From Clostridiales bacterium (GTDB lineage: Bacteria > Bacillota > Clostridia > Oscillospirales > Oscillospiraceae), in contig JALFVN010000040.1 in assembly GCA_022787565.1 (NCBI GenBank), positions 62,001 through 126,000 on the forward strand: 64,000 nt of DNA, in the 5' to 3' direction. Shown here in pieces: positions 22,075 through 42,349 of the stretch. Each line of letters begins with the position of its first letter. Position 1 is the first letter of the stretch. Position numbers and translations under genes: made by a program. A model generated the notes under the pieces. That model saw only the letters and a list, made by a program, of their open reading frames with translations. It was not told the DNA's origin and searched no databases.

Positions 22075-22107
22075 AAAAAAGCTGAGCCTTTCCGGCTCAG
22101 CTTTTTT
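22075..22107 (+). terminator. intrinsic terminator of the NSS gene
   Basis: GCTGAGCC / GGCTCAGC stem (22081-22101) preceded by six A and followed by six T residues. Confidence 0.95.
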
Positions 22108-22731: not shown

Positions 22732-23694
22732 TCAATGATTCTTTCCCACGTCCTGCCAGTTGGCGTTGCGGAGGATCTCCGCGTTCTCTCCGATGAATAC
22801 CGTTCCGGCCTCCTCATCGCTGGTGAGCTGATACAGCATCCAGGCGGTCATGTATCCGTCCGAGCGCATCAGCATCTGCTCATGCTCGGCCCCGACAGCT
22901 CTTGCCCGGACCTTTGGCACTTCGTCCGTGATGCTGTCATAGTTTGCAATCATTGCGGAAAGCGGCGATACTCCGCCGAAGCTGGTTTCCGGATCATTGC
23001 CGGAATCGTCAGACTTGCCGGTACCGGCAGCCATGAAATATGGGATCGCAACCTTGGACACGTCATACTCCCAACCCATGTTTTTGGCCAGCGTAGGATA
23101 GGCGGCGCTTCCTGTAAACATCGCCTTATATTGGGCACCGTTTTCAAAGTTTGTTACGGCACAAATCGCACCGGCACCGCCCTGGGAATAGCCGATAATG
23201 CCCATGCTGTCATAATCGATCTTACCAGAAAGTACACTGCCGTCGGGTATGTTCAGCATGAAATCCAAGGTAAGAGAGGCTGTTTCACCGTTTCCGGTCT
23301 GACCGTCCTCGTTGCCGACTACGATAAAGCCCCAAGATGCTAAACGCGGGAAGAACGGCTCATAAGAGGCGGCAGGCGTTCCGCTGGCATTGACGACCAT
23401 GATCATCGGCCAAGACTTGCCTCCTGATTCCAGTTCCGCAGGATACCAGACTCTGATTTTCCCGATGGATTCGTTATCAGAAGGAAACTCTGTATAAGCA
23501 GTCGTATAATCGCCCGGCTGAGAATACTTCACTTCAAGCGGCGCGTCGGATTTGAAGCTCAGATAATAGCCCTCTACGATATCGTTGTTCCCATCCCCGC
23601 CGGGCATCATGGACTTGACGTATTGAACCGCAGCGGCACCCAGCACGAGGAGTATCACCGACAGAATCAACACAATTGTCAGCACTTTCCTCAT
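22732..23694 (-). CDS. membrane-anchored alpha/beta hydrolase (esterase-like)
   Basis: A 320-residue protein with an N-terminal membrane anchor (VLTIVLILSVILLVLGAAAVQYV, about 4-27) and an extracytoplasmic alpha/beta-hydrolase domain. The nucleophile elbow is GYSQGG, in a setting like chlorophyllase or dienelactone-hydrolase-type esterases, and a His is available in AVGAEHEQML. It begins at the ATG behind GAGGACAA; the longer frame overlaps the neighbouring gene. It is the last gene of the eleven-gene minus-strand operon, 17 bases after the preceding anchored esterase. A role in removing ester groups from the imported or surface-bound glycoside is inferred. Confidence 0.75.
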   Translation of the reverse strand: MRKVLTIVLILSVILLVLGAAAVQYVKSMMPGGDGNNDIVEGYYLSFKSDAPLEVKYSQPGDYTTAYTEFPSDNESIGKIRVWYPAELESGGKSWPMIMVVNASGTPAASYEPFFPRLASWGFIVVGNEDGQTGNGETASLTLDFMLNIPDGSVLSGKIDYDSMGIIGYSQGGAGAICAVTNFENGAQYKAMFTGSAAYPTLAKNMGWEYDVSKVAIPYFMAAGTGKSDDSGNDPETSFGGVSPLSAMIANYDSITDEVPKVRARAVGAEHEQMLMRSDGYMTAWMLYQLTSDEEAGTVFIGENAEILRNANWQDVGKNH

Positions 23695-23711
23695 TTGTCC
23701 TCTATCCCTTG

Positions 23712-24827
23712 TTATTTGTCGAGCAGCGCGAGGCCGTGACTCTCCACATTGCCATTCATAGCAGCATAGATCCAATCCGCAACGCTGACGCCGTCCTCCA
23801 GCTTGTCAAACACATTGCTGGAAATGATGGTGTGCTGCGTGTTATGGGTTTCCGGATCTTCTCCGTAATTCCAGATGTAGATACCGACGCCGGGAATGTT
23901 CTTTTGCAGCCCTGCTACCATCTTGGAAAGATCCGCCTGGAACCGGTCTCCCAGCGCCTTGGTTTTGTCCATCTTCCCCGTATGGATGAAAGACTGGTAC
24001 TGCATCAGCGTATCGTCTCGATAGGAGCAGTCGAACAGGATTTTGACGCTGTCGCCGCGCTTTTCATACAGCGCGGTCAGGCTGTCCAATACCAGATTGT
24101 CCGTCACCAGACGGTCGGAGATTTCCTTGGGTGACTGCCAGAGATTTACCGCCGTCTCGTGCCATCCGTCATAGAGCAGCAGCGAGCTGTCCACACAGAC
24201 CGTGATATTCTTCGCGCTGGGGAAACGGTCGATCACGTCATCAGCCAGGAGGGACGTGGCAAAGCCGCCCGCGGAGAAGCCCGTTACCAGCAGAGTATCC
24301 GGCTCGCCCACATAGGGCTTGATTTGCTCCACGAACGCGGCGTAATTGCTGTAGCCGGTATGGTAGACTGTCTTTTTCCCAGCATAGACGCCTGTACCGG
24401 AATGGAAGTCACCGGTAGCGTAAGGAATCACGAGGAAGCTCCAATCCTTGAAGGGGTTATTCTCTGCGTTGCTGCCGATACCACCTTCCGCCACGAAGTC
24501 CTGCCCCGTCATATTCGTTGCATAGAACTTGTTTCCGGCTTCCGAGGTTTCCGGCGTAATGCTCACACCGCCGCCGAAGAAATAGACGACGACCTTGTTC
24601 TCGGTGCCTTTTTTGAAGATTCCGTGCCACTCGCTGCCGTCCGAAGACTGCGTACCATCTACCTTGACCTCATACCATTTTCCGATTTCTGGCTCGCCCG
24701 TCAGATCCAGGAAGCTTTTGAGAAAGGTGTTTTTCAGCAGTACAAACACAGCGATTGCAAGTATGACAATGACGCAGGCGAGAATGAGCAGAACTTTTTT
24801 CACTTTTCTGTGCTTTTTCTTTTCCAT
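23712..24827 (-). CDS. membrane-anchored pectin-acetylesterase-like hydrolase
   Basis: A 371-residue serine hydrolase of the pectinacetylesterase/Notum type. A lysine-rich start and one membrane segment (VLLILACVIVILAIAVFVLL, about 12-31) anchor it. The catalytic domain shows the oxyanion region YFFGGGVS, YATGDFHSGTG, the nucleophile elbow TGFSAGGFATSLL, then CVDSSLLL; a late His (NTQHTII) likely completes the triad. It is a paralogue of the unanchored protein at 33076-34200, sharing the YATGDFH and TGFSAG blocks. Expected reaction: removal of O-acetyl or similar acyl groups outside the membrane. Confidence 0.78.
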   Translation of the reverse strand: MEKKKHRKVKKVLLILACVIVILAIAVFVLLKNTFLKSFLDLTGEPEIGKWYEVKVDGTQSSDGSEWHGIFKKGTENKVVVYFFGGGVSITPETSEAGNKFYATNMTGQDFVAEGGIGSNAENNPFKDWSFLVIPYATGDFHSGTGVYAGKKTVYHTGYSNYAAFVEQIKPYVGEPDTLLVTGFSAGGFATSLLADDVIDRFPSAKNITVCVDSSLLLYDGWHETAVNLWQSPKEISDRLVTDNLVLDSLTALYEKRGDSVKILFDCSYRDDTLMQYQSFIHTGKMDKTKALGDRFQADLSKMVAGLQKNIPGVGIYIWNYGEDPETHNTQHTIISSNVFDKLEDGVSVADWIYAAMNGNVESHGLALLDK

Positions 24828-24840
24828 TTGCCCTTCTCCT

Positions 24841-27261
24841 TTATATTCCCATGGTTACCTGAACATTTGCTTTTGACCGACCGTTCAGAATCGACTCTGT
24901 CAGAAGCGACCCGTTCTTCAGATCGATTCTTACACCATTAACTCGCATTTCTTTGACGCCGTGCTGGACGTGATCGGGGTTTTCCACCCGGATCGTCAGA
25001 TGGCAGCCGCGGAAGCTGCGCTCTACCGTGAAACCGTCCCATTCGGCGGGGATCGACGGGTCGATCAGCAATCCTTTCAGCGTGGGGCGGATACCCAGCA
25101 GATACTGGGTCGCCACCACGTCCATCCAGGCCGCCGTGCCGGTGACCTGGGAAACGCAGCCCCAGCCGAACTTCTCGTTGTCCTTGCCCAGCATGGTGGA
25201 GCAGTATGCATAGGCCTCCGCGTGATAGCGCTCCACGCCGACCTTTTTGATGACCTCATGCGGCATGATCTGCTTGTAGTATTTCCAGGCCCGATCGCCG
25301 CGCCCCAGCAAAGCCTCGGCCATGATGGCCCAGCAGTTGGCCTGGCAGAAAACGCCGCCGTTTTCCGAGTAGCCGGCGGGGAGACCGTTGACCATGGCCG
25401 CCTCCTTGCTGGGCCAGCCGGGATAGCCGGGGGTGTTGAGCAGCAGGCCCATGCCGGTATCCAGCTCCCGAGCGGCGCTGTCCATGGCCTCGATCTGATG
25501 CTCCCAGCAGGCGTCCGCAATGACCATCCAGCTCTGGGCGTTCAGCCAGATCCGGGCGTGCTCTTGGGTGTGGGTGCCGATGGGCTGAGCCTCGTCGTCC
25601 AGACCCCGCAGGAACCATGCGCCGTCCCAAGCGTATGCCTCCAGCGCCTTTTCCTGCTTCTCCATGAGTTTCCGGAACGGCTCCGCGCTCTCGCCGCGTG
25701 CCTCGGCCAGCTCTGTAAGCTGACGCAGGGCAACAATATGCTGCTGGGAGACCATGATGCTCTCGCCTTTGCCCTTGCGGCCAAAGGGACCGAGATGGTC
25801 GTTCCAGTCAGAAAACAGGATCAGCGGCAGACCGTGTGCGCCCAGGTGCTTTTCGGTGAAGTCCACGCCGCGCAGCAGATGCTCCCACAGCGTGGCGGAG
25901 CCGACAGGCGTTACCAAATCCGTCCCAAGGAACGAGATCTCCTTGTCCAGAAAGCTCAGTTCACCGGTTTCCGCGGCGATAGCATAGGCCAGATACACCA
26001 TCCAGATATGATCGTCCGAGCGGGTAATGTCCTGCGGCGGGCGTTTTTCTTCGGGCCATGCGGTGTGGATGGCGTGGCCGTCCTCCAACTGTTGGGAGGC
26101 CAGATACCACAGCATCTCTGTTGCCCACTCCGGCTTGCGGTAGGCCTGGGCCAGCATGTCCTGGGCCGTGTCACGGAAGCCGATGCCGCGCACGCCGGAG
26201 GCGTCCGAGCTGATGGAGCGGGAATAGCGGGCGGTCTGCACGCTCTGCAGCGGATTCCAGGTGTTGATCATCCTCTGAGCGTCATCGTCGGGCAGAACGC
26301 ATTGATAGACGGCAAGATGTTCGCTCCACCAGCTTTGAAGCTTTGCAAACTGCCGATCGACCGCGCCCTCTTTGCGAAGGGCGGTCAGCGTCTCTTTTGC
26401 TCCGGCTATGGCCTTGTCATAGTCGGACAGCGCACCCTCGGTCACACCGAGGAAGAAATGAAGCTGTTTCTCCTCATTTTTGTCGAGAGAAACATGGGTG
26501 TGAAGCGCGCCGCAGGGCTCGCCGCCCTGCAGATTGGTGTTGGAGAGACGGCCGTTCTGAACCTCCACGGGATTTCTCTCATCCCGGTAATTGCCGCAGA
26601 ACAGGTCCCGGTTGCAGCAGAAGGAAGATATTTTCGCATCCGAAGCGAAGGTCACCAGCGGGGACTCGTCCTTGCGCGGGTGCATCCAGGCGGTATAGGC
26701 GTAGGTGATGGCCTGCAGTTCCTCGTCGAACACCGCGCGGGTATTCCACTTGAGATAATAGCCGAGGATGTTCTCCTCCCGCGCCAGAAACTGGCTGAGT
26801 TCCACATAGGCAAAGACGTCGCAGGAGATCTCCTCTCCACTCGCGTTTACGAGCTTGAGATCCCACACCAGCGTGTCATAGTCCTGGGCCATGAAGAGCT
26901 TCAAGGTGGCGGTCAGCCCGTCCTTTTTCGCGGTAAACGTGGAATATCCCGGCGCGTGGCAGGCCTCGCGGAAATCCACTGGCGTTTCAATGGGGCGAAA
27001 CGCGGGCGACCAGACCGTGCCGTCGGCCATGCGGAGATACACATAGAAACCCGGGGAATCAATGGGCATGTTGTAAAAGCGGTAGCGGGTCAGGCGAAAC
27101 ATCATCGGGGACAGCCACCAGCTCATTCCGCCGCCCGCCTGGGAGACGAAGGAGTGCATCCTGCCGTTGGAGAGATAGTTGATCCAGGGCGCGGGCAGGT
27201 CAAAGCGATCAAAGCGGATCTCCCGCCGATCGTCGTGAAACTGATAGGGCAGCTTATCCAT
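24841..27261 (-). CDS. GH94-like glycoside phosphorylase
   Basis: An 806-residue protein resembling cellobiose/chitobiose phosphorylases, which split beta-glucosides with phosphate to give a sugar 1-phosphate. Visible: the N-terminal beta-sandwich (WINYLSNGRMHSFVSQAGGG), the (alpha/alpha)6 barrel with GVRGIGFRDTAQDML (357-370), RSDDHIWMVYLAYA, the catalytic Asp in LILFSDWNDHL (480-490), and a late ENGGVFCQANCW plus GWGCVSQVTGTAAWM. All match GH94 order. It is shorter and diverged from characterised enzymes, so linkage and acceptor are open. No signal peptide. Its ATG overlaps the GH78 stop by eight bases and carries AAGGAGAA. Confidence 0.8.
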   Translation of the reverse strand: MDKLPYQFHDDRREIRFDRFDLPAPWINYLSNGRMHSFVSQAGGGMSWWLSPMMFRLTRYRFYNMPIDSPGFYVYLRMADGTVWSPAFRPIETPVDFREACHAPGYSTFTAKKDGLTATLKLFMAQDYDTLVWDLKLVNASGEEISCDVFAYVELSQFLAREENILGYYLKWNTRAVFDEELQAITYAYTAWMHPRKDESPLVTFASDAKISSFCCNRDLFCGNYRDERNPVEVQNGRLSNTNLQGGEPCGALHTHVSLDKNEEKQLHFFLGVTEGALSDYDKAIAGAKETLTALRKEGAVDRQFAKLQSWWSEHLAVYQCVLPDDDAQRMINTWNPLQSVQTARYSRSISSDASGVRGIGFRDTAQDMLAQAYRKPEWATEMLWYLASQQLEDGHAIHTAWPEEKRPPQDITRSDDHIWMVYLAYAIAAETGELSFLDKEISFLGTDLVTPVGSATLWEHLLRGVDFTEKHLGAHGLPLILFSDWNDHLGPFGRKGKGESIMVSQQHIVALRQLTELAEARGESAEPFRKLMEKQEKALEAYAWDGAWFLRGLDDEAQPIGTHTQEHARIWLNAQSWMVIADACWEHQIEAMDSAARELDTGMGLLLNTPGYPGWPSKEAAMVNGLPAGYSENGGVFCQANCWAIMAEALLGRGDRAWKYYKQIMPHEVIKKVGVERYHAEAYAYCSTMLGKDNEKFGWGCVSQVTGTAAWMDVVATQYLLGIRPTLKGLLIDPSIPAEWDGFTVERSFRGCHLTIRVENPDHVQHGVKEMRVNGVRIDLKNGSLLTESILNGRSKANVQVTMGI

Positions 27262-29584
27262 GGTGTTCTCCTTCCAAGCGATAGGTTCCGGCGCACAGCG
27301 TCCTTGCACTGCCGTCCGGCAGGGTCAGGCAGGCCGTTGTTCCCTCGGGCACGGTGCAGGTATAGACGAAACGCTCTCCCTCCCGCTCCCAGCGGGAGCG
27401 GATCATGCCAAATTGGGTCTTGTAGCTGCCCTCCGCCCAGGTCAGGCTGCCGCCGAGGATAGGACGCAGCTCAAACTCCCGGAAGCCCGGAGCGTCAAAG
27501 CTCGGGCGGATGCCCGCCACGTATTCAAACAGGAACTGACAGACCGCGCCGAAGCTGTAGTGATTGAAGCTGTCCCGGTATACGTCCATGCCGTTCCAGT
27601 TTTCCGGCATCGTTGTCGCGCCCAGCGTGATGGGGTGCAGCCAGCCGGGAGCGGTAGTCTGCTCCAGAATGCGGAAGGCTTCATCGACCAGCCCGTTGTC
27701 GCAGAGGGTGGGCAGCAGATAAACGGTGGAGAGGAAGCCGGTGTTCAGGTGGTAGTTGGCCGCCTCCAATTCCTTTTTGAGCTGGGCGATCACCATCGGC
27801 TTCTTCTCCTCACTGACCATGCCCAGCGCCAGGGCGCGGATATACGCCGCCTGATGGCCCGGCTGGATTGTGCCGTCGGGGCCGATCAGGTACTTGTCAT
27901 AGGCGGCCTTGATTCTCTCGGAAAGCGCCGCATAGTGCGCTGCGTCCTCGTCTTTGCCGAGGATGCGTGCCATGTGGGCAAGATTGTCGCAGCTGCGCCT
28001 GGTGTAGGCGGTGGCCACCTCCGGCTTGCCGTATTTGGCCATATGGGTCACGTAGTCCGCCGCCGTGCCGCCCTTGGCAAAGAGCTCGATGACCTCCGGG
28101 GCTGGCGGCAGCGGCTCGTTCCATTCTCCGTAATGGAAGCGGGTGTCGTAGATGAGATCCCCGTCGCCGTTTGCGTACCAGGCCTTGTCCGCATACATTG
28201 GATTGGTTTCCTTCATACAGCGCAGGGAGAACTCGACCCACTTCTTCGCCGTCTCATAGTGCTCTTCCAGGAAAGATTTATCGCCGTACATCAGGTACAT
28301 CTGGTATGGGATCCACACGGCGGAATCGCCCCAGCCCACGCTGTCCTCCCCGATGTTTCCGTTACCGGTCGGCCCGGCCAGCGCCATAGCGGGGTCCTTT
28401 GCCTGCACCGCTTTCAGTTCTTCCGGATTGTGGACGCTGGAGGTAGATGGGAAGGTGATGCCCAGCTTGCCGGAGGCGTACTGCTCGATGGTCTGGTCGC
28501 AGAGCCACTTCTTGAAAAACTGCTGTACGTCCATGAAATACGCCGCCGTGCGGCAGTAGATCATGGCGTCGCCCGTCCAGGTGTTGCGCTCGCGGGTGGG
28601 GCAGTCCACCGGCACGTCCAGAAAGTTGCCCTTCTGGCTCCAGCGGGCGTTTTCCACGAGCTTGTTGATGAGTGGATTGGAGCAACGGAAATTACCGGTC
28701 TCCTCCATATCGGAGTAAACGGCGATGGCCTCGAAGTCGGCATCTTCGATGCCCTCCACAAGGGCATACCGGAAGCCGAATACGGCAAAGTGCGGTGTGT
28801 ATTCCTCGACCTCCGCGCCTTTGCAGATGTAGGTGATCTCCTGAAATTCCGCCCTTCCGCCGTCACAGTTGGCGGTGGAAAAGCATCCGTCCTTGTCCAA
28901 TCCTTCTCCGTGTTTCAGGTGCACGACCTGCCCGGGCGCGGTATTCCGAAGTGTCATTCGGACATAGCCCGCGATGTTCTGACCGAAGTCGATGACCAGA
29001 TTCCCTGCGGTATCGCGCATGGGCTTACCCTGGAAGCGTTCTTTTTCCCGCACGGGGACGCTCTGATTTTCAATCAGCGTCCCTTCTGTATGCTCTGTGC
29101 AGAGAGACGCCTCTTGCCAGCCGTGTAGCACGATCCGGGCGTCGTAGCTTTCGCCCTTTTGCAGATCCGTCCGCACGACGGGGCCGAGGCCGACCTCCCA
29201 TCTTTCGTCCGTGGAGAGCGTCTCCACGCTGCCATCAGCGTAATAGAGCCTAAACTCGCCCCAGAGTGCAAGCATATAGCCGAAGTTGTTGTTCCAGCGC
29301 CACCAACCGTCGCCTACAGTCACAAGCAGCTCATTACCGCCCTCTTTTACGAGAGCGGTAATGTCATATTCCTGCATCTGGATACGGTAATAATAGCTCG
29401 TAAGGCCCGGTAAAAACCGGTTTTCGGTCACACTCGCGCCATTGACATTCGCTTCATAGAGTCCATGGGCAGAGAGCCGCAAAACGGCCTTTTTCACCTT
29501 CTGATGCAGTTCAAATCTCCGTCTGAAAACCGGCACCAGAGGATTGTCTTTATCATCTTCGGGATGACAGATCCACTTTGCCAT
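27254..29584 (-). CDS. GH78 alpha-L-rhamnosidase
   Basis: A 776-residue cytoplasmic enzyme removing terminal alpha-L-rhamnose. Family marks: N-terminal beta-domains with GLYEANVNG, the SYYYRIQMQEYDIT region, NLVIDFGQNIAGYV (195-208), the barrel entry VPVDCPTRERNTWTGDA (325-340) and GWGDSAVWIPYQMY (417-430), where GH78 catalytic acids lie, then ENWNGMDVYRDSFNHYSFGAV. The final beta-domain is present, so the length is complete. The ATG at 29584 shares its A with the TGA stop of the GH3 gene (TGATG), indicating coupled translation. This gene is the main evidence that the substrate carries rhamnose. Confidence 0.92.
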   Translation of the reverse strand: MAKWICHPEDDKDNPLVPVFRRRFELHQKVKKAVLRLSAHGLYEANVNGASVTENRFLPGLTSYYYRIQMQEYDITALVKEGGNELLVTVGDGWWRWNNNFGYMLALWGEFRLYYADGSVETLSTDERWEVGLGPVVRTDLQKGESYDARIVLHGWQEASLCTEHTEGTLIENQSVPVREKERFQGKPMRDTAGNLVIDFGQNIAGYVRMTLRNTAPGQVVHLKHGEGLDKDGCFSTANCDGGRAEFQEITYICKGAEVEEYTPHFAVFGFRYALVEGIEDADFEAIAVYSDMEETGNFRCSNPLINKLVENARWSQKGNFLDVPVDCPTRERNTWTGDAMIYCRTAAYFMDVQQFFKKWLCDQTIEQYASGKLGITFPSTSSVHNPEELKAVQAKDPAMALAGPTGNGNIGEDSVGWGDSAVWIPYQMYLMYGDKSFLEEHYETAKKWVEFSLRCMKETNPMYADKAWYANGDGDLIYDTRFHYGEWNEPLPPAPEVIELFAKGGTAADYVTHMAKYGKPEVATAYTRRSCDNLAHMARILGKDEDAAHYAALSERIKAAYDKYLIGPDGTIQPGHQAAYIRALALGMVSEEKKPMVIAQLKKELEAANYHLNTGFLSTVYLLPTLCDNGLVDEAFRILEQTTAPGWLHPITLGATTMPENWNGMDVYRDSFNHYSFGAVCQFLFEYVAGIRPSFDAPGFREFELRPILGGSLTWAEGSYKTQFGMIRSRWEREGERFVYTCTVPEGTTACLTLPDGSARTLCAGTYRLEGEHHG

Positions 29585-32025
29585 CAACTTAACTCCTTTG
29601 AAAGTGCCAGGATCCTTCCGGTGCAGGCTTCCAGTTCGGCACGGGTAATCGTTCCGTCCTTTATGCCGGTCAGAATACCTTCCACATCTTCCTTCGATCC
29701 GGCCATCATCAGATCGTTGCCGGCCTTAATGCAGAGCGCCGGGCTGGACGCGCCGTAGACACCCAAATTGAACTTATCGTTCGTGGTGCCCCAGTCGGTC
29801 ATGACGATGCCCTCAAACCCCCACTCGCCGCGCAGTACCGTATTGATCAGATCGCTGCGGTTCGCAGTATGAATACCGTTCAGAAGGTTATATGAAGTCA
29901 TCAGCGCTTTCGGCGCAGCTTCCTTTACACAAATCTCGAATCCTTTCAGGTAGATTTCCCGCAAAGCCCGTTGGGAAACCACACTGTTGGAACCGTAACG
30001 GTTGGTTTCCTGATTGTTGCATGCATAATGCTTGATCGTAACAGTACACTTTTCATGCTTCTGCACACCGCGGGTCATCGCTGCTGCGGTTTTGCCGGAA
30101 ATCAGCGGATCCTCCGAATAATATTCAAAGTTCCGGCCGCAAAGCGGGCTGCGGTGGATGTTCAATGCGGGTGCCAGCCACACGTTGGCACCGAAGAGTT
30201 CCATTTCTTCACCGACCAGATCGCCGCAGGCCTCCACAACAACCGGGTTCCAGGCCTGTGCCAGGGCCGTGCCGATGGGAATCGCGGAAGCATAATGATA
30301 CAGCACGGTGTTTGTTTTGGCTTTTTCCTCATTCTGCCGCAGCTTCATACGGATCAGCTGCTGGATCTCGGGCGGCAGGATATTGAGGACGCTGTTAAAG
30401 GCGTCGGAATCCAGCCCATCCTGGCCGTCCTCCGTTTCCATGTACCTGGTTGCCAGCCGCAGTCCCGCAGGGCCGTCGGCCATGACGATGGCGCCATAGC
30501 CCTTTTTTGTAACAACAGACGCGGTTTCGCCCGCGCCGCCAGCAAGACGGGAGGCGGAGTTTCCGATAATGGCCGCCATGCCCTCCGCGTCCGAGTGCTT
30601 TCCTGCGCAGATCGTGGCCAGCTCCCGGTCGGAAAAGTCGGAAAGGTTCTCCAAACCGATATGCTCCCGGCCAACGCTTTCTCGATCATAGTGGCCGATG
30701 GGGCCAAGTGAGGCTGCGGAAACCGGAATACACGGCAGGTTCCTGGGAATCTCGCGCGTGATCTGCGGCTGCCAGTCTGTAAAGTCCGCTTCTCCGCCGG
30801 AATGGCTGAGCGCATCGGAAGTCACAGGACCGTCCAGCGATACGACCCCAATAGGCATAGCGCCGATGCTGAACAGGTATTCACCCTGCTCCAGCAGCCA
30901 GCAGTCGTTTTCTTCATCCCAGCTTGCCAGGTTTTCCGGCGGGAGATTCAGCACGAGCGTCTCGCTCTCACCGGGGGCAAGTTCTCTTGTTTTGGCATAT
31001 CCACCCAGCTCCCGCAGGGGCTTGACGAGCCTGCCGCTCGGCGCGGAACAGTAGAGCTGCACGGTCTCTTTTCCGGGGAAACGGCCGGTGTTTCTGATCT
31101 TAACTTCAATGGACACGAGTCCGTTCTCCACGGAGAAGCCCATACAATCCTCTGCAAATTCCGTATAACTCAGCCCGTAACCGAAAGGAAAGAGCGGCTC
31201 GATACCCGCCGCGTCATAATAGCGGTATCCGACGAAAACACCTTCCCGGTAGCGGGTATCGTCCCGCTCGGCAAAGTCACCGATCGGCATAATATCACCC
31301 GCCTTCGCCCAGGTCGTAGTGAGTTTGCCGGAAGGGTTGGCCTTACCAAGCAGCACATCCGCGAAGGCGTCACCGGTTACGCTGCCGAGCTGGCTCAGGA
31401 GGAGGACATTTTCCACCTTGTCCAGCACGGGCGAAATATCCACCGGGCCGCCCACGTTCAGCACCAGCAGAAACTTCTCATACCGCTCAGCGCAGCACAG
31501 AATGTCCCGCTTTTCATCCGATGTCAGCAGATAATCGCCCTCGCCGCCTGGACGGTCCGCGCCTTCACCGGAATTGCGGGAAAGCACATAGACGCACACC
31601 TTTCCCTCACCGTCCAACGGAAGAGTATAGCGGGGCTCCGGGGGCGTCCGCCCCATGCCGACGAGGAAAACAGATTTCCCCAGCTCCTTCGCTTCTTGGG
31701 CAATGCCATCATAAAAATCCTTGATCCCGGCATCCCGGATCGCCTTGTATCCATCCATCCACGCCTTTGTGGTGACGGTAAAACCTGCGTTTTCAAGGCC
31801 CTCTTCCACGGTCACATAGTGGCGCACGTTCACGTCGCCGCTTCCGGTGCCACCCTTGATGGTCTCCCGCGCGCCCGCGCCGTAGAGAGCGATCTCGCAG
31901 GGAGAAGAAAGCGGGAAGTCTCCATTCTTTTTCAGCAGCACCATGCACTCCGGTGCAAGGGAGCGGAGCGCCGCCAGATGCTCTTTTTCAAACTCCTGAA
32001 CGTCAGGAGAATCGATTCTGATCAT
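29584..32025 (-). CDS. GH3 beta-glucosidase with permuted domain order
   Basis: An 813-residue GH3 enzyme whose domains run in reverse order. The first about 260 residues are the GH3 C-terminal alpha/beta sandwich (LAPECMVLLKKNGDFPL, VLLLSQLGSVTGDAFADVLLG, NPSGKLTTTW). A fibronectin-III-like domain follows (GKETVQLYCSAPSG, about 310-400). The N-terminal (beta/alpha)8 domain comes last (ADGPAGLR, NVWLAPALNIHRSPLCGRNFEYYSEDP, TIKHYACNNQETNR), with the nucleophile Asp744 in GIVMTDWG. Such permuted GH3s are known in rumen and gut clostridia. No signal peptide. Likely removes beta-glucose or a related beta-sugar after rhamnose release. Confidence 0.92.
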   Translation of the reverse strand: MIRIDSPDVQEFEKEHLAALRSLAPECMVLLKKNGDFPLSSPCEIALYGAGARETIKGGTGSGDVNVRHYVTVEEGLENAGFTVTTKAWMDGYKAIRDAGIKDFYDGIAQEAKELGKSVFLVGMGRTPPEPRYTLPLDGEGKVCVYVLSRNSGEGADRPGGEGDYLLTSDEKRDILCCAERYEKFLLVLNVGGPVDISPVLDKVENVLLLSQLGSVTGDAFADVLLGKANPSGKLTTTWAKAGDIMPIGDFAERDDTRYREGVFVGYRYYDAAGIEPLFPFGYGLSYTEFAEDCMGFSVENGLVSIEVKIRNTGRFPGKETVQLYCSAPSGRLVKPLRELGGYAKTRELAPGESETLVLNLPPENLASWDEENDCWLLEQGEYLFSIGAMPIGVVSLDGPVTSDALSHSGGEADFTDWQPQITREIPRNLPCIPVSAASLGPIGHYDRESVGREHIGLENLSDFSDRELATICAGKHSDAEGMAAIIGNSASRLAGGAGETASVVTKKGYGAIVMADGPAGLRLATRYMETEDGQDGLDSDAFNSVLNILPPEIQQLIRMKLRQNEEKAKTNTVLYHYASAIPIGTALAQAWNPVVVEACGDLVGEEMELFGANVWLAPALNIHRSPLCGRNFEYYSEDPLISGKTAAAMTRGVQKHEKCTVTIKHYACNNQETNRYGSNSVVSQRALREIYLKGFEICVKEAAPKALMTSYNLLNGIHTANRSDLINTVLRGEWGFEGIVMTDWGTTNDKFNLGVYGASSPALCIKAGNDLMMAGSKEDVEGILTGIKDGTITRAELEACTGRILALSKELS

Positions 32026-32029
32026 ATGA

Positions 32030-33061: not shown

Positions 33062-33075
33062 GTTGCGATCTCCTT

Positions 33076-34200: not shown

Positions 34201-35086
34201 GGTTTTCCTCCTTGCTCATCGCATAGAGCTCTTTCGCCTTTTCCACCTTATAGCGGAAGCAATCCTCCCGCAGCTTGTCCTGCTCCGGCTTTTCCTCGGC
34301 CTTGTCGGTGCCGAAGCCGTGATAGCCATCCTTGTACATCTTCAGATCCAGCAGCTTTCCACGCTGCTTCAAAAGCTCCGCGTAATGCTCTCCCTGGGGA
34401 TGCAGGGGGTCCCGGCCACAGACGATAACCACCGCCGGAGAGAGCTTTTCCAGCGTTTCCGCTGTGATCTTCGCCGCCGGGGACAGCACCTCGCTGTCCA
34501 AAGGCAGCTTGGGCGGATAGAGCTCAAACATCAATTTGTAGAGTTTGTCCCCCTCCGGGAAGTCGATGGGGATCGTGTGGGTGAAGTCCAGGAAAGGAAC
34601 CTCCATGATCTGCCCCGCGATCTGTACGCCCTGCTGGGCAAGCAATATGGCAGAGCCCGCCGTGAGATGTCCGCCTGCGCTGCCGCCGGAAAGGATGATC
34701 CTGTCGGGGTCGATGCCCAGCTGTTTTGCGTGGGCTTTCAGCCACTTGACGGTATCTACGACCTCCTCCTGCGGATAGGGGAAGCTCTTGTCATAGAGCC
34801 GCTTGTAGTTCACGTTGACCACAAAGGCCCCCAGCTCTTCGCTCAGCCGCTGGCAGTAGCGGTCGTCGTCCACCGCGTCCAGGCCGACCCAGGCGCCGCC
34901 GTGGATCTGGACAAACACCGGCATGTTTTCCCGCTGCTTGGGATAGTAGAACAGCACTTCCACCGAGTCTTTGCCTTCGCGCTGGATGTAGCTGCGGTCT
35001 CCGACAACAGGATCGGTTTTGTAATGCTTATTGACCTTATGGAAGCGGGCGTTCATCACCGCCCGTTTGATTGCCGTAAATGCCAT
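34178..35086 (-). CDS. alpha/beta hydrolase of the HSL/acetyl-esterase type
   Basis: A 302-residue cytoplasmic esterase. The HGGAW oxyanion motif (VQIHGGAWVG), NVNYKRLYDKSFPYPQEEV, nucleophile elbow SGGSAGGHLTA, Asp in VCGRDPLHPQ and His in YKDGYHGFGT give a complete triad. This is the hormone-sensitive-lipase/acetyl-esterase pattern (HGG and GxSxG). ATG 35086 with AGGTG upstream is better than an in-frame TTG 15 bases earlier. The start is one base after the GH2 stop, so translation is coupled. Confidence 0.85.
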   Translation of the reverse strand: MAFTAIKRAVMNARFHKVNKHYKTDPVVGDRSYIQREGKDSVEVLFYYPKQRENMPVFVQIHGGAWVGLDAVDDDRYCQRLSEELGAFVVNVNYKRLYDKSFPYPQEEVVDTVKWLKAHAKQLGIDPDRIILSGGSAGGHLTAGSAILLAQQGVQIAGQIMEVPFLDFTHTIPIDFPEGDKLYKLMFELYPPKLPLDSEVLSPAAKITAETLEKLSPAVVIVCGRDPLHPQGEHYAELLKQRGKLLDLKMYKDGYHGFGTDKAEEKPEQDKLREDCFRYKVEKAKELYAMSKEENHGEAENT

Positions 35087-35087
35087 G

Positions 35088-37385
35088 TCATTGCACCTCA
35101 ATTTTCAATTCTCCGTCACCGCGCGTCACGATGAGCGCCCGGCCGTGCCAGGTTCGGATGGTCTTGTCGAAATAGTTTTCCTCGCTCTTCGGGTCTGCCG
35201 AACCAAAGCCCTGGATCGTACGCTCCCCCTTCGTTTCTGCTGTGAGAGTCAGCACAGTCTCCGGGTTGAGGATGCCCTCTTTGTCCTTAACGGAGAGCTC
35301 GATGATCCCGCCGCCAAAGTCTGTCTGTTCCAGGTGAACTTCGTCGGAGGCAGTCATCAGCCGATCCAGTTCCGCGCTCTTTCCGGCCCGGATATTGATC
35401 GCTGTCAGCTCACCCGGCTCGTATACGGTTTCGAACAGCGCCTTGCAGCGCTCTGTCTTCTGTTTTCCAACCGAGCGGCCGTTGACAAGCAGTTCGACCT
35501 CGTCGGCGTCGGAATAGACCTCCACCACGATGGGCTTGCCTTCGCAGCCCCGATAGTTCCAGCTGCGCAGAGCGTCCGACCAGCCCCAGCGGGTGGGAGA
35601 CTGCTTTTCTCCGTAGTGGGTCGGGTCCTGCACCGCGAGATAGGGCTCCTTCCGAAGTCCCCAGACGATCTGCCGCCAGTAGGATACCGGACGGCGGTCG
35701 CCGATCAGATCGAAGTCACCGCAGTTTGCCGTCCGCCAGGGGTAAGCGCCGTACAGATCGTACTCGGGCGCCTCGCCGTAGCGGTGCTGCCCGACGCCGG
35801 CCTCGCCCAGGTAGTCCCAGGCCGTCCAGCCGAAGTCTCCGATCAGCTGCGGAAGCTTCTCGCAGAGCATCCAATTTTCATAAAGGGCGCCGGGATAGCA
35901 CTCCGCCCCCAGCATGACACGGTGAGGGTATTGCGCAGCGTCCGCTTCATAGCGGAAGACGGCGTAGTTGTAGCCCGCCACGTCCAGATAGCTGAATGCC
36001 TCCTCCAGCGGCTCGCCGATCTCCCGGGATGCCATCAGTCTGGCCAGCTCCTCGGCATTTCCGTTTAAAATGGAATTGATGTCCGCCCCGGCTTTGACAG
36101 CCAGCTCCGGAATACGATCCATCAGCGACAGCACCGGGTTCACGCAGTTGGTGAGATAGCGCGTGGGATCCAGCTTGCGGATATGATCGCAGAGCTGTCT
36201 GCCATACTGCACTTCGTGAGGATCGCTGACCTCACAGATCTCGTTGCCGATGGAGTAGAGGATCACCGAAGGATGATGAAAGGCCAGCTCCACCATGGCC
36301 GCGGCGTCTTCCTCCCAGTGAGAAAGAAAGTGGGCGGAATAATCAGAGTCTACCTTCGGCGCCGTCCAGGCGTCGCAGAGCTCCAGCATGACGAGCATCC
36401 CCAGCTCGTCACAGGCCTCCAGCACCATCCGGCTTGTGGGAAAATGGGCGCAGCGGATCGCGTTATAGCCTGCTTCCCTGAGCTTTCGGATGCGCCGGAA
36501 GGTCAAAGCCCGGTTCTCCACCGCTCCTATCACGCCGTGATCCTGGTGGAGGCAGCCGCCCCGAAGCTTGACAGGCTCGCCGTTTATACGCAGCCCGCGT
36601 CTGGCGTCCAGGGCGAGGGTTCGGACGCCGAAGCGCGTGTGCTCGCTGTCCAGTCCCTCCAGTTCGGTCTCGCAATCGTACAGGTAAGGGTGGTCAAGGC
36701 TCCAGAGCTTCGGATGCTCCAGCGTAAAGCGCAGTGTTGCCGTCTTGGTTTCGCCCGCCAGGAGCGTCACCGGGGCGCTGATCTCCGCTTCGCCGATCCG
36801 ATGGCGCAGGCAAAGCGTTTGCTGCCGTGCTTCCCGGTTGACCAGCGTGGTCTGGATCAGCAGTGCCGCCGCTTCCTCATCCGCTTCCGACACTGTGATC
36901 TTCACGCCGTTCGGCGCGATATGGACGCTGCCCGCCCGAAGCAGCCACACGTCCCGGTAGATGCCGGTGCCCGTATACCAGCGGCTGGACGAAACGCCGT
37001 TTCGCACCAGTACCTTGACGGTGTTCTTTCCCTGTTTCAGGAAAGGCGAAATATCGACCGTAAAAGCGGTATAGCCATTATAGTGCTGCGCCGCGAGGCA
37101 GCCGTTGATATAGACTGCTGCATTGTGATAAACGCCTTCAAACTCCAGGTACGCCGCGCCGGAGGGGTCATCCCATTCGAATTCTTTGGTATAGTGAACG
37201 GTCTCGGCGGGGTAATACCCGGTGGCATTGCCGGTAGGCGTTTGGGGATCCCGCGCCCGGCTGATCATGGCGTCATGGGGCAGCGTTACCTGAACCGGCG
37301 TCTGTGCGCCGCTGATCGTGCGCTCCAGAGCCGTCCCGCTGCCGCGGCCGAACAGCCAGCCGCTGTTAAAGCTCTCCCGTTTCAT
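35088..37385 (-). CDS. GH2 glycosidase (beta-galactosidase family)
   Basis: A 765-residue cytoplasmic GH2 enzyme. N-terminal sugar-binding domain (FNSGWLFGRG, LPHDAM, YPAETVHYTKEF), GVYHNAAVYING, SSSRWYTGTGIYRDVWL, Ig-like domain, then the barrel with acid/base Glu382 (YSIGNEI) and nucleophile Glu495 (LGAECYPG), followed by C-terminal beta-domains. It differs clearly from the GH2 at 11557-13899. Substrate may be a beta-galactoside or another beta-linked sugar. Its ATG shares a base with the transporter stop (TGATG). Confidence 0.92.
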   Translation of the reverse strand: MKRESFNSGWLFGRGSGTALERTISGAQTPVQVTLPHDAMISRARDPQTPTGNATGYYPAETVHYTKEFEWDDPSGAAYLEFEGVYHNAAVYINGCLAAQHYNGYTAFTVDISPFLKQGKNTVKVLVRNGVSSSRWYTGTGIYRDVWLLRAGSVHIAPNGVKITVSEADEEAAALLIQTTLVNREARQQTLCLRHRIGEAEISAPVTLLAGETKTATLRFTLEHPKLWSLDHPYLYDCETELEGLDSEHTRFGVRTLALDARRGLRINGEPVKLRGGCLHQDHGVIGAVENRALTFRRIRKLREAGYNAIRCAHFPTSRMVLEACDELGMLVMLELCDAWTAPKVDSDYSAHFLSHWEEDAAAMVELAFHHPSVILYSIGNEICEVSDPHEVQYGRQLCDHIRKLDPTRYLTNCVNPVLSLMDRIPELAVKAGADINSILNGNAEELARLMASREIGEPLEEAFSYLDVAGYNYAVFRYEADAAQYPHRVMLGAECYPGALYENWMLCEKLPQLIGDFGWTAWDYLGEAGVGQHRYGEAPEYDLYGAYPWRTANCGDFDLIGDRRPVSYWRQIVWGLRKEPYLAVQDPTHYGEKQSPTRWGWSDALRSWNYRGCEGKPIVVEVYSDADEVELLVNGRSVGKQKTERCKALFETVYEPGELTAINIRAGKSAELDRLMTASDEVHLEQTDFGGGIIELSVKDKEGILNPETVLTLTAETKGERTIQGFGSADPKSEENYFDKTIRTWHGRALIVTRGDGELKIEVQ

Positions 37386-38863
37386 CAATACTTCCTCGAA
37401 AGCTGCGCTTCACATTCCTCGCGGGTAATCTGTCCGGCGTTGCACTTGGCCATCAGCTCCGCGTCCTTATCCTTCAGATTGTAGAACGCATACAGCAGGA
37501 TCGCAGAGATCCCGAAGCCGATGCCCGGAATCAGATAGCCCAGATTCCAGAGAGCGCTCAGCGCGGTCTCGGACTGGGTCACGCCCTGGGCGGCCAGATC
37601 CGCAAAGCTGTCGCCCGTGACCTCTTTCCATCCGAATACCGCCAGGATATACAGGGCGACGGAACCGACCACGCCACCCAGCGCCTTGTTCAGGAAGGAC
37701 TGCAGCGCATAGAAGATGCCGGAGCAATCCTTGCCGGTCTTATACCGGGTGTAGTCGATGGTGTCCGGCGCGATGTAGGTCCTGACTACGCTGACCAGCG
37801 CGTTGGGGATCGCGCACAGGCCGCCGACTACGATGAACATGGTTTTGTTGTCATGGCAGAAGAAATAGATGATCAGCGTTGCGGCCGTCAGCAGCACGAA
37901 GATGAAGGCCAAAAGGTTGCGCTTGCCGAATTTGTCTGCCAGCTTGCCGCAGAAGGCGCTCAGGATGATGCCGGGGACGAAGCCGATCAGCATGACATAG
38001 GTGAAGATCATAGAGTCGTGGAAAATGTAGAAGCCGAGGAAGCTTTCCACAGCGGTGCGGGTGCAGAAGATGGTGGAGATGATGACGGCCAGGAAATAGA
38101 CCAGGATGTACTTGTTCGTGAACACACAGTTGATCATGTCCTTGAAGCTGTAATTCTCCTGGGAGCCCTCGTTTTCCACGTTCTTGAGCTCAATATTGTG
38201 CTCGTTGACCTTGAACACCATCGGGAGCATGAAGGCCAGGAAGATCACTGCGCCGCCGATACCGATGTTCTTCAGCGGAACCCCCACCTTTTCGCTCATC
38301 AGCGCGGAGACGACGGTCGCCATGCCGATGGCCGCAATGACAGTGATCACGCCTTTTGCGGTCAGAATGCTGTTGCGCTCGGAGGGGCTGTCCGTCAGCG
38401 TGGTGATCATCGACTGCATCGGGACCTCCGTCAGCGTGCAGGTGAAGTCATAGAACAGATAGGTCACGAAAAACCAGACGATTTTCAGACTGTCCGGCGC
38501 GCCCTTGGGCATCAGGAAAAACAGGATCGTCGCGACCGGGAAGCTCCAGAAGAACAGCCGGTACCAGGGCATATACTTGCCTTCGCCGGCAAATCTCTGA
38601 AACAGCTTCCAGTCCTTGATGTGGATCCGGTCGATGATATAGCCGAACAGCACATCATCCACCGAGTCAATGATCTTGACGAGCAGGATCGCCGTGGCCA
38701 GGGACGCGGTGTTGATGCCCTGGAACATCAGGAACACGGTCATGTAGGAGCCAACCAGGGAGGTGCAGAAGAGACGCGCCGTATCGCCCACATAGTACCA
38801 GTTCTTTTCCGACCGGCTCAGCCGCCAGTCCGGATGCTTGTTCACGCTTTCTTTTCTTGCCAT
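37385..38863 (-). CDS. GPH family sugar:cation symporter (MFS)
   Basis: A 492-residue transporter with about 12 membrane helices of the glycoside-pentoside-hexuronide:cation family. Family marks include the N-terminal YYVGDTARLFCTSLVGSYM, the KIIDSVDDVLFGYIIDR loop after TM2 with paired acidic residues, and RYKTGKDCSGIFYALQSFLNKALGG in the C-terminal half. These carriers bring in intact glycosides by proton or sodium symport, without phosphorylation. It is the only sugar transporter in the operon, so all cytoplasmic enzymes must act on what it imports. Confidence 0.92.
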   Translation of the reverse strand: MARKESVNKHPDWRLSRSEKNWYYVGDTARLFCTSLVGSYMTVFLMFQGINTASLATAILLVKIIDSVDDVLFGYIIDRIHIKDWKLFQRFAGEGKYMPWYRLFFWSFPVATILFFLMPKGAPDSLKIVWFFVTYLFYDFTCTLTEVPMQSMITTLTDSPSERNSILTAKGVITVIAAIGMATVVSALMSEKVGVPLKNIGIGGAVIFLAFMLPMVFKVNEHNIELKNVENEGSQENYSFKDMINCVFTNKYILVYFLAVIISTIFCTRTAVESFLGFYIFHDSMIFTYVMLIGFVPGIILSAFCGKLADKFGKRNLLAFIFVLLTAATLIIYFFCHDNKTMFIVVGGLCAIPNALVSVVRTYIAPDTIDYTRYKTGKDCSGIFYALQSFLNKALGGVVGSVALYILAVFGWKEVTGDSFADLAAQGVTQSETALSALWNLGYLIPGIGFGISAILLYAFYNLKDKDAELMAKCNAGQITREECEAQLSRKY

Positions 38864-38876
38864 CGTTCTCTACCCC

Positions 38877-39842
38877 TTATATGTATTTTTGAATGAAGTT
38901 CATCATCCGGTCAAAGGCTTCTTTCGCATGCGGCTCGGAAGCCATCTGATCCATGTAACCGTGCGGCAGCTTTGCCCCGGGGAAGAAGATCAGATCATTG
39001 GGAACGCCGATTTCGTCCAGCTTTCTCTTGAGGCCGCGGCCCTCCGTGATGAAATAGCCGTTTTCGTCGTTGGGCTCGTTGGAGGCGTTGATCCAGCTGG
39101 GAATGAAGCTGTCGCGAATATAGGTTTTCGCGTTGATGATCGCCACGGTCTCCGGCGTATTTCGCTTTGCGCCGATAGCGCAGCCCAGCATGGCGTACAT
39201 ATTGCCGTCAAATACGCTGGCATCCAGCGCGGCCTCGTCGATGGCAAGCACCTTCAGGTTTTCCCTTGTCATCACGGGATCGACGCCCAGCAGGCCAGCG
39301 TACTCGGGATTACAGACGCAGGCGGCATAGATTTCTGTCATATTTGCCCCGGCACTGCCTCCCGAGAGGCAGACACGGGACATATCCAGATGCAGTTCTT
39401 CCTGGTGCGCGATCAGATAGCGGAACAACTCGTCCGTCTGCCGGATCGGCACCGGAAACCGGTACTGCGGCGCCAGCGCGTAGTCGGCATTGACCAGGAT
39501 ATAGCCTGCTCGCACGACGGCTTCGAGCTTTCCCACACCGCCTCCGCCGGTCTGCATCGGGTCGCCGGCGGACTTGTTGCCGAAGATGAAGCCGCCGCCG
39601 TGGAAGTACACCACCACGGGCCGCTTCTCGCCGCTGTCGTCGGGATACCAGATGTCCGCGAAGCTGTTGGGCCAGGTCTCGCCGTATTTGACATCACTGC
39701 GGCAGATCAGGCCGCTGGGAAGCTTCTTCACTTCCGGCGCATGCCAGGGCTCCCACTCGTTGGGCTTGTGCCCCTTGTAGAGCTTGGCATAGACTGCTTT
39801 TTGCACAAGCATACATTTCAGATCGTTCAGGAGCTTTGCCAT
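38877..39842 (-). CDS. HSL-type alpha/beta hydrolase, first gene of the glycosidase operon
   Basis: A 321-residue esterase of the acetyl-esterase/HSL group. VVYFHGGGFIFGNK carries the oxyanion HGGG, NADYALAPQYRFPVPI is the typical next block, and SGGSAGANMTEIY is the nucleophile elbow. A late His lies in AKLPHGYMDQ. No signal peptide. The chosen ATG has AAAGGAAATAATGAG before it; an earlier ATG is possible, 21 bases upstream. On the minus strand a TATAAT lies 50 bases upstream (39892-39897), but its -35 is poor, which fits dependence on an activator such as the divergent AraC protein. Confidence 0.85.
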   Translation of the reverse strand: MAKLLNDLKCMLVQKAVYAKLYKGHKPNEWEPWHAPEVKKLPSGLICRSDVKYGETWPNSFADIWYPDDSGEKRPVVVYFHGGGFIFGNKSAGDPMQTGGGGVGKLEAVVRAGYILVNADYALAPQYRFPVPIRQTDELFRYLIAHQEELHLDMSRVCLSGGSAGANMTEIYAACVCNPEYAGLLGVDPVMTRENLKVLAIDEAALDASVFDGNMYAMLGCAIGAKRNTPETVAIINAKTYIRDSFIPSWINASNEPNDENGYFITEGRGLKRKLDEIGVPNDLIFFPGAKLPHGYMDQMASEPHAKEAFDRMMNFIQKYI

Positions 39843-39945
39843 CTCATTATTTCCTTTCATCATACAGGCTTTTTATGTCCCGGCATATTTTATTATACTG
39901 ATTTCACTGCATAAAAAAATACCGTTATTTTTCTTCTTGAATAGG

Positions 39946-39974
39946 TTGATTTTTACTTCCCCATCCTGTATTGT
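39946..39974 (+). promoter_or_regulatory. promoter of the AraC-family regulator
   Basis: TTGATT (39946-39951) and TATTGT (39969-39974) with 17-base spacing, then AAGGAGG at about 39988. The opposing operon promoter lies about 50 bases to the left, so one regulator-bound site could serve both. Confidence 0.65.
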
Positions 39975-40002
39975 AAATCTTGAACAAAAGGAGGCGGATC
40001 CT

Positions 40003-41067
40003 ATGGCTGACTATACTCGCTTAGTGGAAGAGCTTCGGCAGTTGAATCCCTATGAACGAGTCGGGAAGGACTTCTATGATCAAACCGGAAGCCCCCTGCG
40101 CCACGGCCAGTATTTATACCTGGCAAAGCACCAGCTGAATGCGAGGCTGCTCAGCACGATGAACAGCCCGTCTGCCCTGCGCGAACAGGGGCAGATCGTA
40201 GCCGCCTTTCATGAACGGTACGGAAAGACCGGCCTGACGGAAGCGGATTTCATCAGCCCCGGCTGCGATATTGAAGTCGAGCAGCTGCTGCGGTATGTGG
40301 AGATCCCGCCCCATTCCCATGAGTTTGTGGAATGCGCATTTGTGCTCCGGGGCAGCTGCATCCACCGCATTGACGAGAGCGAGGTGGTGCAGAACGAGGG
40401 AAGCTTTATCCTGGTCCCCGTTCCCGTTCGTCATCAGCTGATCGCGCTGGACGACGCGGTCTGTCTCACAATCAAGATTCGTTTGAGCTTATTCGTAAAG
40501 CTGTCCATTCCCCACCTGCCGGCCATGGTGTATCCCCTGAGCTTTCAATGCGGCCAGGATCCGGCTACCGAAAGCATGCTTCTGTTTTTGTATGAGCAGC
40601 AGCAGAGTCGGCTGCCCTATCGAAAAGAACTGATGGAGTCCGCGCTGACCTGCCTGATCACCTATATTCTACAGAAATACCGCGATACGATGCAGCCGCT
40701 GTATAACATTCCGATCCGGGACCAGCAGCTTCTCGACATGGTCAATTACATGTACGATAACTATCGGACGATCACGCTCCACTCCCTTGCCGCGCACTTT
40801 CACTACAACGACTCCTATCTCAGCCGGATGTTTCAGGAGCAGGCCGGGCGCTCCTTCTCGGCGACCGTCAAAGATTTCAAGCTGAGAAAGGCCGCCGAAC
40901 TTTTGAAATCCGAAAACTGGAAACTGGAACAGATCTGCGAAGAGATCGGATACAAGGACACGCGTCAGTTCATCCGCAGCTTCAAGGCGATGTTCGGGTT
41001 GACGCCGGACAAGTTCCGAAAGCGAAATCAGGGGAGCCTGCAGCAAGTTTGGTCTTTTGGCCCGTAA
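40003..41067 (+). CDS. AraC-family regulator of the glycosidase operon
   Basis: A 354-residue regulator. The middle (about 100-180) is a cupin-like sensor (YVEIPPHSHEFVECAFVLRG, EGSFILVPVPVRHQL), and the last about 100 residues are the AraC double helix-turn-helix (LHSLAAHFHYNDSYLSRMFQEQAG; ICEEIGYKDTRQFIRSFKAMFGLTP). It is transcribed away from the eleven-gene operon, across a 160-base divergent promoter region, the standard place for its activator. The effector is probably a sugar from the imported substrate. ATG 40003 follows an ideal AAGGAGG. Confidence 0.92.
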   Translation: MADYTRLVEELRQLNPYERVGKDFYDQTGSPLRHGQYLYLAKHQLNARLLSTMNSPSALREQGQIVAAFHERYGKTGLTEADFISPGCDIEVEQLLRYVEIPPHSHEFVECAFVLRGSCIHRIDESEVVQNEGSFILVPVPVRHQLIALDDAVCLTIKIRLSLFVKLSIPHLPAMVYPLSFQCGQDPATESMLLFLYEQQQSRLPYRKELMESALTCLITYILQKYRDTMQPLYNIPIRDQQLLDMVNYMYDNYRTITLHSLAAHFHYNDSYLSRMFQEQAGRSFSATVKDFKLRKAAELLKSENWKLEQICEEIGYKDTRQFIRSFKAMFGLTPDKFRKRNQGSLQQVWSFGP

Positions 41068-41074
41068 AACAAGA

Positions 41075-41110
41075 AAGCTCCCAGATTTTTTGGTCTGAGA
41101 GCTCCTTTTT
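41075..41110 (+). terminator. intrinsic terminator after the AraC gene
   Basis: AAGCTC / GAGCTC-type stem with a CCAGA / TCTG extension, loop of T residues, then seven T residues. Confidence 0.7.
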
Positions 41111-41228
41111 TTCAAGGTTTTACTTCTTCATCTCCGCAATCTTCCCGTCGATATCCCGGAACCACATGCAGATAATACCTAACGCCTTGACAATATCAAG
41201 CTCCTCGATTCGCTGTCTGTCTTCCTGC

Positions 41229-42346: not shown

Positions 42347-42349
42347 GCC

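Follow-up and report, generated by a model that had tools for sequence, protein, structure and literature searches.

Eleven genes (g1 to g11) lie on the minus strand, at 39863-22732, beside a divergent AraC gene in a 64-kb window of the Clostridiales bacterium contig JALFVN010000040.1; the window is the whole stretch of DNA analysed, and all coordinates refer to it. In the order of transcription, Pfam assigns g1 to the esterases, g2 to GPH-type carriers, g3 to GH2, g4, g5 and g6 again to the esterases, g7 to GH3, g8 to GH78, g9 to GH94, and g10 and g11 once more to the esterases, so that both the positions and the families given in a preliminary description of this DNA are retained. On balance, these genes probably constitute a catabolic operon of herbivore-gut Clostridia that spreads horizontally and serves to break down a small, acylated plant glycoside or oligosaccharide containing rhamnose. 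Gene content and spacing, the conservation of catalytic residues, the recurrence, the GH94 replacements and the rhamnose genes are read directly from sequence; the sideways spread, the substrate class, the order of the steps, the location of the enzymes and phosphorolysis are the parts that we infer.

Measured from starts accompanied by a Shine-Dalgarno-like stretch, as judged by eye, the ten intergenic gaps from g1 to g11 amount to 13, −1, 1, −23, 14, 4, −1, −8, 13 and 17 bases. This spacing of −23 to +17 bases argues for the single transcription unit proposed before, and the TGATG junctions at 29584 and 37385 on which that proposal drew are reproduced by the gene coordinates. Several gene starts had to be corrected, with g11 probably beginning at ATG 23694 (320 aa), the GH94 gene at ATG 27261 and the AraC gene at an ATG near 40003. 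Gram-positive utilisation loci hold degrading enzymes, a sugar transporter and a regulator together, and all three lie side by side here.

Glycosidases, carrier and esterases of the operon

The GH78 α-L-rhamnosidase-family protein g8 (27254..29587, minus strand; ATG 29584) carries four GH78 Pfam domains and matches the solved chain 3w5m with 386 bits. Its E333 and E662, which align with glutamates of 3w5m that we take to be catalytic, are invariant in 31 aligned sequences, as expected of a GH78 α-L-rhamnosidase. Invariance for this and all other operon enzymes was counted over 40 of the 41 related loci described below, with L059 omitted as a near copy of L058; counts include the window and are restricted to matches exceeding set limits of length and identity.

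In the GH3 glycosidase g7 (29584..32025, minus strand), the C-terminal domain (residues 28-287) and an Fn3-like domain (320-389) precede the N-terminal domain (579-807) in the Pfam matches, which bears out the permutation noted earlier. The nearest solved chain is the β-glucosidase 2x40 (455 bits). Despite the swapped domains, the GH3 catalytic residues E154 and D744, presumably the acid/base and the nucleophile, respectively, are invariant in 24 aligned sequences, and 24 loci carry a GH3 that aligns end to end with the swapped g7 in a single alignment. The third glycosidase, g3 (35088..37388, minus strand; ATG 37385), is by Pfam a GH2 β-glycosidase with DUF4982 and C5 domains; its best NCBIfam models are the β-galactosidases GalA and GalB, at 362 and 344 bits and under the cut-off of 900, and its E383 and E496 are invariant in 13 aligned sequences. 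Upstream of it, g2 (37385..38863, minus strand) is a sugar:cation symporter of the MFS_2 family. Since it lies well above the cut-off of PF13347 (3e-43, 148 bits; cut-off 27) and below that of NCBIfam TIGR00792 for GPH symporters (160 bits; cut-off 231), it is named GPH-type here.

The six esterases, all on the minus strand and of the α/β-hydrolase fold, fall into several types. In g1 (38877..39863; start perhaps 39842), an Abhydrolase_3/BD-FAE protein (Pfam 5e-20/6e-19), S170 of GGSAG and the Asp/His candidates D209, D266 and H301 are invariant in seven aligned sequences. The same holds in 22 aligned sequences each for S141 of GGSAG, D231 and H261 of g4 (34178..35101; ATG 35086), which matches Abhydrolase_3 PF07859 at 1e-42, and for S112 of GFSAG, D172/D173 and H205 of g6 (32030..33061), a BD-FAE protein (4e-19) with a C-terminal extension of ~100 residues. 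Both g5 (33076..34200; 40.4 bits) and g10 (23712..24827; 42.9 bits) exceed the cut-off of 26.6 of the pectinacetylesterase family PF03283, which we take to be linked to CE13. Their Ser-Asp-His residues (S189, D273 and H336 in g5; S185, D271 and H332 in g10) are present and invariant among aligned sequences, and they are the only two PF03283 matches in the host assembly. No credible solved relative was found for these PF03283 proteins: a single-sequence search gave none at E up to 1, and the best match of a profile search of solved chains, at 0.017, is a designed protein. The last gene product, g11 (22732..23775; start probably 23694), is a PETase/lipase-like esterase that barely reaches the cut-off of PF12740 (28.1 bits; cut-off 28) and matches lipase and PETase-type chains at ~1e-18 in a profile search; its S197 is invariant in 19 aligned sequences. 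Wherever they could be aligned, all six types conserve the GxSxG serine together with Asp and His candidates.

A 19-residue hydropathy window slid over the first ~70 residues of each protein yields maxima of 3.62 for g10, 2.98 for g11 and 1.67 for the carrier; the remaining eight proteins, g5 among them, do not exceed 0.62. The carrier aside, a strong N-terminal hydrophobic stretch is therefore confined to g10 and g11, in agreement with the earlier view that none of the glycosidases has a signal peptide and that two esterases are membrane-anchored; these calls are made from hydropathy. With two anchored and four apparently cytosolic esterases, the sequences favour a staged deacylation, and they are likewise consistent with import followed by breakdown in the cytosol.

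An altered phosphate site in the GH94 protein

The protein g9 (24841..27309, minus strand; ATG 27261) belongs to GH94 by its matches to PF17167 (2e-97, 327 bits) and PF06165 (4e-59, 200 bits), both above the curated cut-off, and it matches the cellobiose phosphorylase 8ho9 with 438 bits. Passages of a study of Cellvibrio gilvus cellobiose phosphorylase (CgCBP) name Arg351, His666, Thr731 and Gly732 as its phosphate ligands, and include Arg367, Asp368, Trp488, Tyr653, Glu659, Asn660 and Phe664 among its sugar-binding residues (PMC5501786). Like CgCBP and 8ho9, g9 has both GH94 domains and the general acid Asp; its phosphate site retains Arg, Thr and Gly, and the counterparts of all of these sugar-binding residues except Tyr653 are conserved. 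Unlike them, it has Gln656 at the position of His666, Leu643 at that of Tyr653, as matched by the motif spacing EN...F.H rather than by structure, and a Gln instead of Trp two residues before the Thr-Gly pair.

These replacements characterize a clade of close relatives of g9 in other genomes. They were surveyed in 30 clade sequences and 43 other GH94s, after omitting matches shorter than 600 residues, duplicates (L001, L003, L036, L059, L004 and L005), L076 and L093. At the phosphate-ligand site, the clade has Gln in 28 of 29 sequences and Arg in the other (L039), whereas His occupies it in 43/43 other GH94s, including sisters at 39-46% identity. Leu643 is found throughout the clade (30/30) at a site that is Tyr in 37/43 others, and Gln721, the residue two ahead of the Thr-Gly pair, in 27/27, against Trp in 39/43. 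Two acidic residues are specific to the clade, Asp427 (30/30) and Asp730 (27/27). The Arg, Thr and Gly phosphate positions are retained, and the general acid Asp of the DWND motif is present in all 31 clade rows (one genome is counted twice). A missing loop downstream of DWND was dropped as a clade marker, as several GH94s outside the clade lack this loop too.

On the residue survey, the reading of g9 as an ordinary cellobiose phosphorylase was set aside. Of the preliminary label "GH94-like phosphorylase", the GH94 domains are confirmed and the word phosphorylase needs a caveat, because the set of phosphate ligands known from GH94 phosphorylases is incomplete, with its His replaced. One explanation is that g9 has abandoned phosphorolysis and acts as a hydrolase, or on another acceptor, with Asp730 or Asp427 as candidate bases. 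The replacement of the His by Gln or Arg in 29/29 clade sequences, and the restriction of both acids to the clade, speak for it, as does a precedent from another family: passages on the α-1,2-glucosidase FjGH65A describe a member of the phosphorylase-rich GH65 that, like g9, has a changed phosphate site, and that works as a hydrolase without phosphate residues, having gained Glu616 as its base (PMC8626586). That enzyme had, however, lost its phosphate site, whereas g9 keeps the Arg, Thr and Gly phosphate positions as well as the general acid Asp, and the explanation is accordingly doubtful; judged by these residues, g9 is more likely a phosphorylase than a hydrolase. A little more speculative still is the idea that this GH94 clade, mobile with the operon, lost the phosphate-binding His and the sugar-binding Tyr on its way to a new activity on the core of a rhamnose-bearing plant glycoside, perhaps as the first GH94 hydrolase; we know of no GH94 hydrolase that has been described. 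The clade would also test how far a phosphorylase family tolerates the loss of a phosphate ligand.

Five GH94s outside the clade, at 39-46% identity (L035 and L095-L098), were compared by context: one has an AraC-type match nearby, and none of the five contexts holds a match to any other enzyme of the cluster. The nearest sisters, L095 and L096 (42-46%), retain the His, and in both a GH130 gene lies at most 4 kb away, hinting at another GH94 specificity.

Recurrence, probable spread and surroundings of the cluster

When the GH94 protein was searched for in 84,980 species genomes by a pattern-based scan, which detects close relatives only, 41 loci in 39 genomes were returned at 66-95% identity; going by titles, L048 and L074 share one genome, and L050 and L076 another. 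Among the locus titles, 15 mention goat, sheep, roe deer, water buffalo or dairy cattle, nine have RUG labels, which we take to stand for rumen uncultured genomes, five contain Lapin (French for rabbit) and 12 have no host indication, so that all 29 loci with informative titles come from herbivore guts.

Around these GH94 genes, the set known from the window recurs in whole or in part, and a chance gathering of these genes can therefore be set aside. When neighbours separated by fewer than 1,200 bases were joined and the best match accepted at E up to 1e-12, the clusters contained GH78 at 32 of the 41 loci, GH3 at 25, g4 and g6 at 24 each, g5 at 22, g10 at 19, g11 at 18, GH2 at 17, the GPH-type carrier at 10 and g1 at seven. 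Since 35 of the 41 clusters reach within 400 bases of the end of their sequence stretch, these counts are lower bounds. A 155-aa reading frame without a Pfam match in L042 lies between GH78 and GH94 in L042 and L046, at 9489-9956 in both. GH94 and GH2 of L060 (12034-14650) and g5 of L057 (3565) are fragmented into several matches, which suggests frameshifts or assembly errors.

Relatedness of the GH94 proteins was compared with that of the genomes carrying them by matching the RpoB of the host to 33 genomes, namely those behind 31 of the 41 loci, the host assembly (G000) and G187. Thirty matched; the genomes of L039, L057 and L058 gave no RpoB match, and the match of G187 is that of the L036 genome, which leaves 28 distinct other genomes. 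In 25 of these, GH94 identity (from tblastn) exceeds RpoB identity (from the genome search), with differences of up to 26 points; the correlation between the two is weak (Spearman 0.37, p 0.049). Among the cases on long contigs are L040 (242 kb; RpoB 65, GH94 90), L045 (113 kb; 65 and 88) and L047 (182 kb; 63 and 85), and wrong binning is unlikely given such lengths. Because GH94 is closer to that of the host than RpoB is in 25/28 genomes, the cluster seems to move between lineages, insofar as identity comparisons can tell.

The divergent AraC-family regulator (39937..41067, plus strand; ATG ~40003) combines a helix-turn-helix domain (HTH_18, 3e-19) with a cupin-like sensor domain (AraC_binding, 4e-6). 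In the divergent intergenic region (39864..40002), a TATAAT-like box faces g1 and is invariant in the three sequences aligned (window, L039 and L074); a consensus promoter scan did not pick it up. The numbers of hits in sigma-70 and terminator scans are near shuffled expectation (10 versus a mean of 8.7, standard deviation 3.1, and 23 versus 17.3, standard deviation 4.2, respectively) and were given no weight. Beside the AraC gene, two plus-strand fragments (41049-41636 and 42331-42645) both match the phage-protein family phrog_18012, whose function is unknown, at 1e-15 and 2e-6, the first also weakly matching the integrase family phrog_95 (7e-4); a cluster of five tRNA genes lies near them at 44032-44515. 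The fragments may be recombinase tails and, as such, traces of the arrival of an island. Just past the other end of the operon, an SNF-type sodium symporter gene (20466-22055, plus strand) adjoins a LysR gene, and positions 22075-22107 form a 14-pair inverted repeat.

Substrate and described systems

The link to rhamnose, first drawn from GH78, is strengthened by gene neighbourhoods. In the divergent relative L058, GH78 and the carrier of the cluster are followed by AraC, an FGGY kinase, an L-rhamnose isomerase (PF06134, 3e-168) and a class II aldolase; L059 resembles L058 in the layout of the cluster itself. The host assembly encodes a single RhaA, on contig C18 (L099), where a RhaBAD-type set with an FGGY kinase and a class II aldolase neighbours a second GH78, a GPH carrier and a GH3. 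The adjacent carrier, GH3 and GH78 resemble the operon and suggest a plain rhamnoside import pathway; unlike the operon, this set has a GH3 of normal domain order and a GH78 that is 37% identical to g8, and neither the esterases nor GH2 nor GH94 find a match in the 12 kb examined. A link to acyl groups is given by the six esterases with their conserved Ser-Asp-His candidates and by a Tannase/feruloyl-esterase-family gene in the cluster of L055, another divergent relative.

In the pathway that we propose, AraC would sense the compound, the anchored g10 and g11 would strip some of its acyl groups outside the cell, and the GPH-type symporter would import the product, whose deacylation would be completed by the cytosolic esterases g1, g4, g5 and g6. 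GH78 would then free L-rhamnose and GH3 and GH2 further caps, leaving a β-linked unit for the atypical GH94 to split, most likely with phosphate and release of a sugar 1-phosphate; the freed rhamnose would enter the RhaBAD-type pathway encoded on C18. The enzyme families of the operon are mostly exo-acting, and its Pfam matches include no lyase and no endo-acting family, which points to a small glycoside or oligosaccharide. Such a substrate would probably be neutral, even though β-glucuronidases are found within GH2. As substrate classes, acylated saponins and flavonoid or phenylethanoid rhamnosides fit equally.

Pectin could also be considered, with the cluster trimming acetylated rhamnogalacturonan I (RG-I) as PF03283 proteins deacetylate it and GH78 takes terminal rhamnose. 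The presence of GH78, and of g5 and g10 in a family named pectinacetylesterase, would suit such a role. The PF03283 matches are weak, at 40 and 43 bits, however; it is not evident, to our knowledge, what GH94 and GH3 would do on RG-I; and the Pfam matches of the operon include no family that acts on galacturonic acid, the rest of the genome not having been searched for one. Lacking endo-acting and galacturonic-acid families in the operon, an RG-I pathway is highly improbable and was set aside. The earlier proposal of whole import of an acylated rhamnoside thus keeps its single unit, its import, its staged deacylation and its rhamnose link, and its RG-I option loses ground through these missing families.

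Several observations weigh against a mobile operon for a small acylated rhamnoside. No aglycone-degrading gene was recognised, and phosphorolysis by g9, a GH94 protein by sequence, is not a safe call. The unit is not fixed: gene order varies in relatives, GH2 is absent between the GPH-type carrier and g4 in L038, L045 and L049, and AraC was counted in just four of the 41 clusters. Where sequence extends past both sides of the cluster, L046 has GH78, GH94, g10 and g11 but, by search, no GH3, and L071 has a GH94 fragment alone. RpoB identity exceeds GH94 identity in 3/28 genomes: L043 (92 and 90), L056 (77 and 71) and L059 (74 and 66). The cluster is also uncommon, as 394 genomes drawn from the order and 391 from the class contained, the host aside, no GH94 above 46% identity; GH94s at 41-46% occurred in 3 and 11 genomes of these draws, respectively, and a draw of 300 genomes from the host family gave a close GH94 copy in one of 299 others, at 92% and from another genus.

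A reading as an acylated-rhamnoside operon would make the cluster relevant to the rumen. Passages of a study of saponins report that rumen microbes strip their sugars, ending the antiprotozoal effect, and that glycosidase inhibitors were tried as a block, without naming the responsible enzyme (PMC5590940). With a rhamnosidase-family protein, β-glycosidases and six esterases, the cluster is a concrete candidate for saponin deglycosylation in the rumen or, alternatively, for the breakdown of other acylated forage glycosides.

No locus of this composition was found in the full-text literature, as judged by titles and abstract openings and with subscription literature mostly outside it, consistent with the preliminary statement that no such described locus was known. 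The component families are all known, and if anything here goes beyond them, it would be the GH94 clade. Among described systems, the closest analogy in logic that we found is the xanthan locus of R.UCG13, a Ruminococcaceae member (Ostrowski et al. 2022), which, as told in passages of a review, pairs two carbohydrate esterases and glycosidases with a GH94 cellobiose phosphorylase and includes GH5, PL8, GH88, GH38 and ABC transporter genes (PMC10881899). It suggests that the operon, too, might take up an acylated oligosaccharide from a bacterial or plant polysaccharide instead of a secondary-metabolite glycoside, deacetylating and trimming it much as xanthan is processed before GH94 splits a glucosyl disaccharide. 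ABC importer genes in L055 and L058, with DUF3502 binding proteins, and a DUF3502 binding protein gene in L075 would suit this origin, as would a GH2 that could act on glucuronic acid. Against it stand the Pfam matches of the operon, in which lyases and endo-acting enzymes are absent, a carrier that is GPH-type here, and the divergence of g9 from cellobiose phosphorylases at the phosphate ligand and the sugar-binding Tyr, and a polysaccharide origin therefore seems unlikely. Identity with the xanthan locus was set aside on the differing families, as neither a GH5 endo-xanthanase nor PL8, GH88 or GH38 is among the Pfam matches of the operon. In summary, the acylated-rhamnoside operon and the R.UCG13 locus (as described in those passages) share a setting in gut Clostridia in which esterases deacetylate, glycosidases trim and GH94 acts last, and the operon differs in its GH78, GH3 and GH2, its six esterases, its GPH-type carrier and its atypical GH94.

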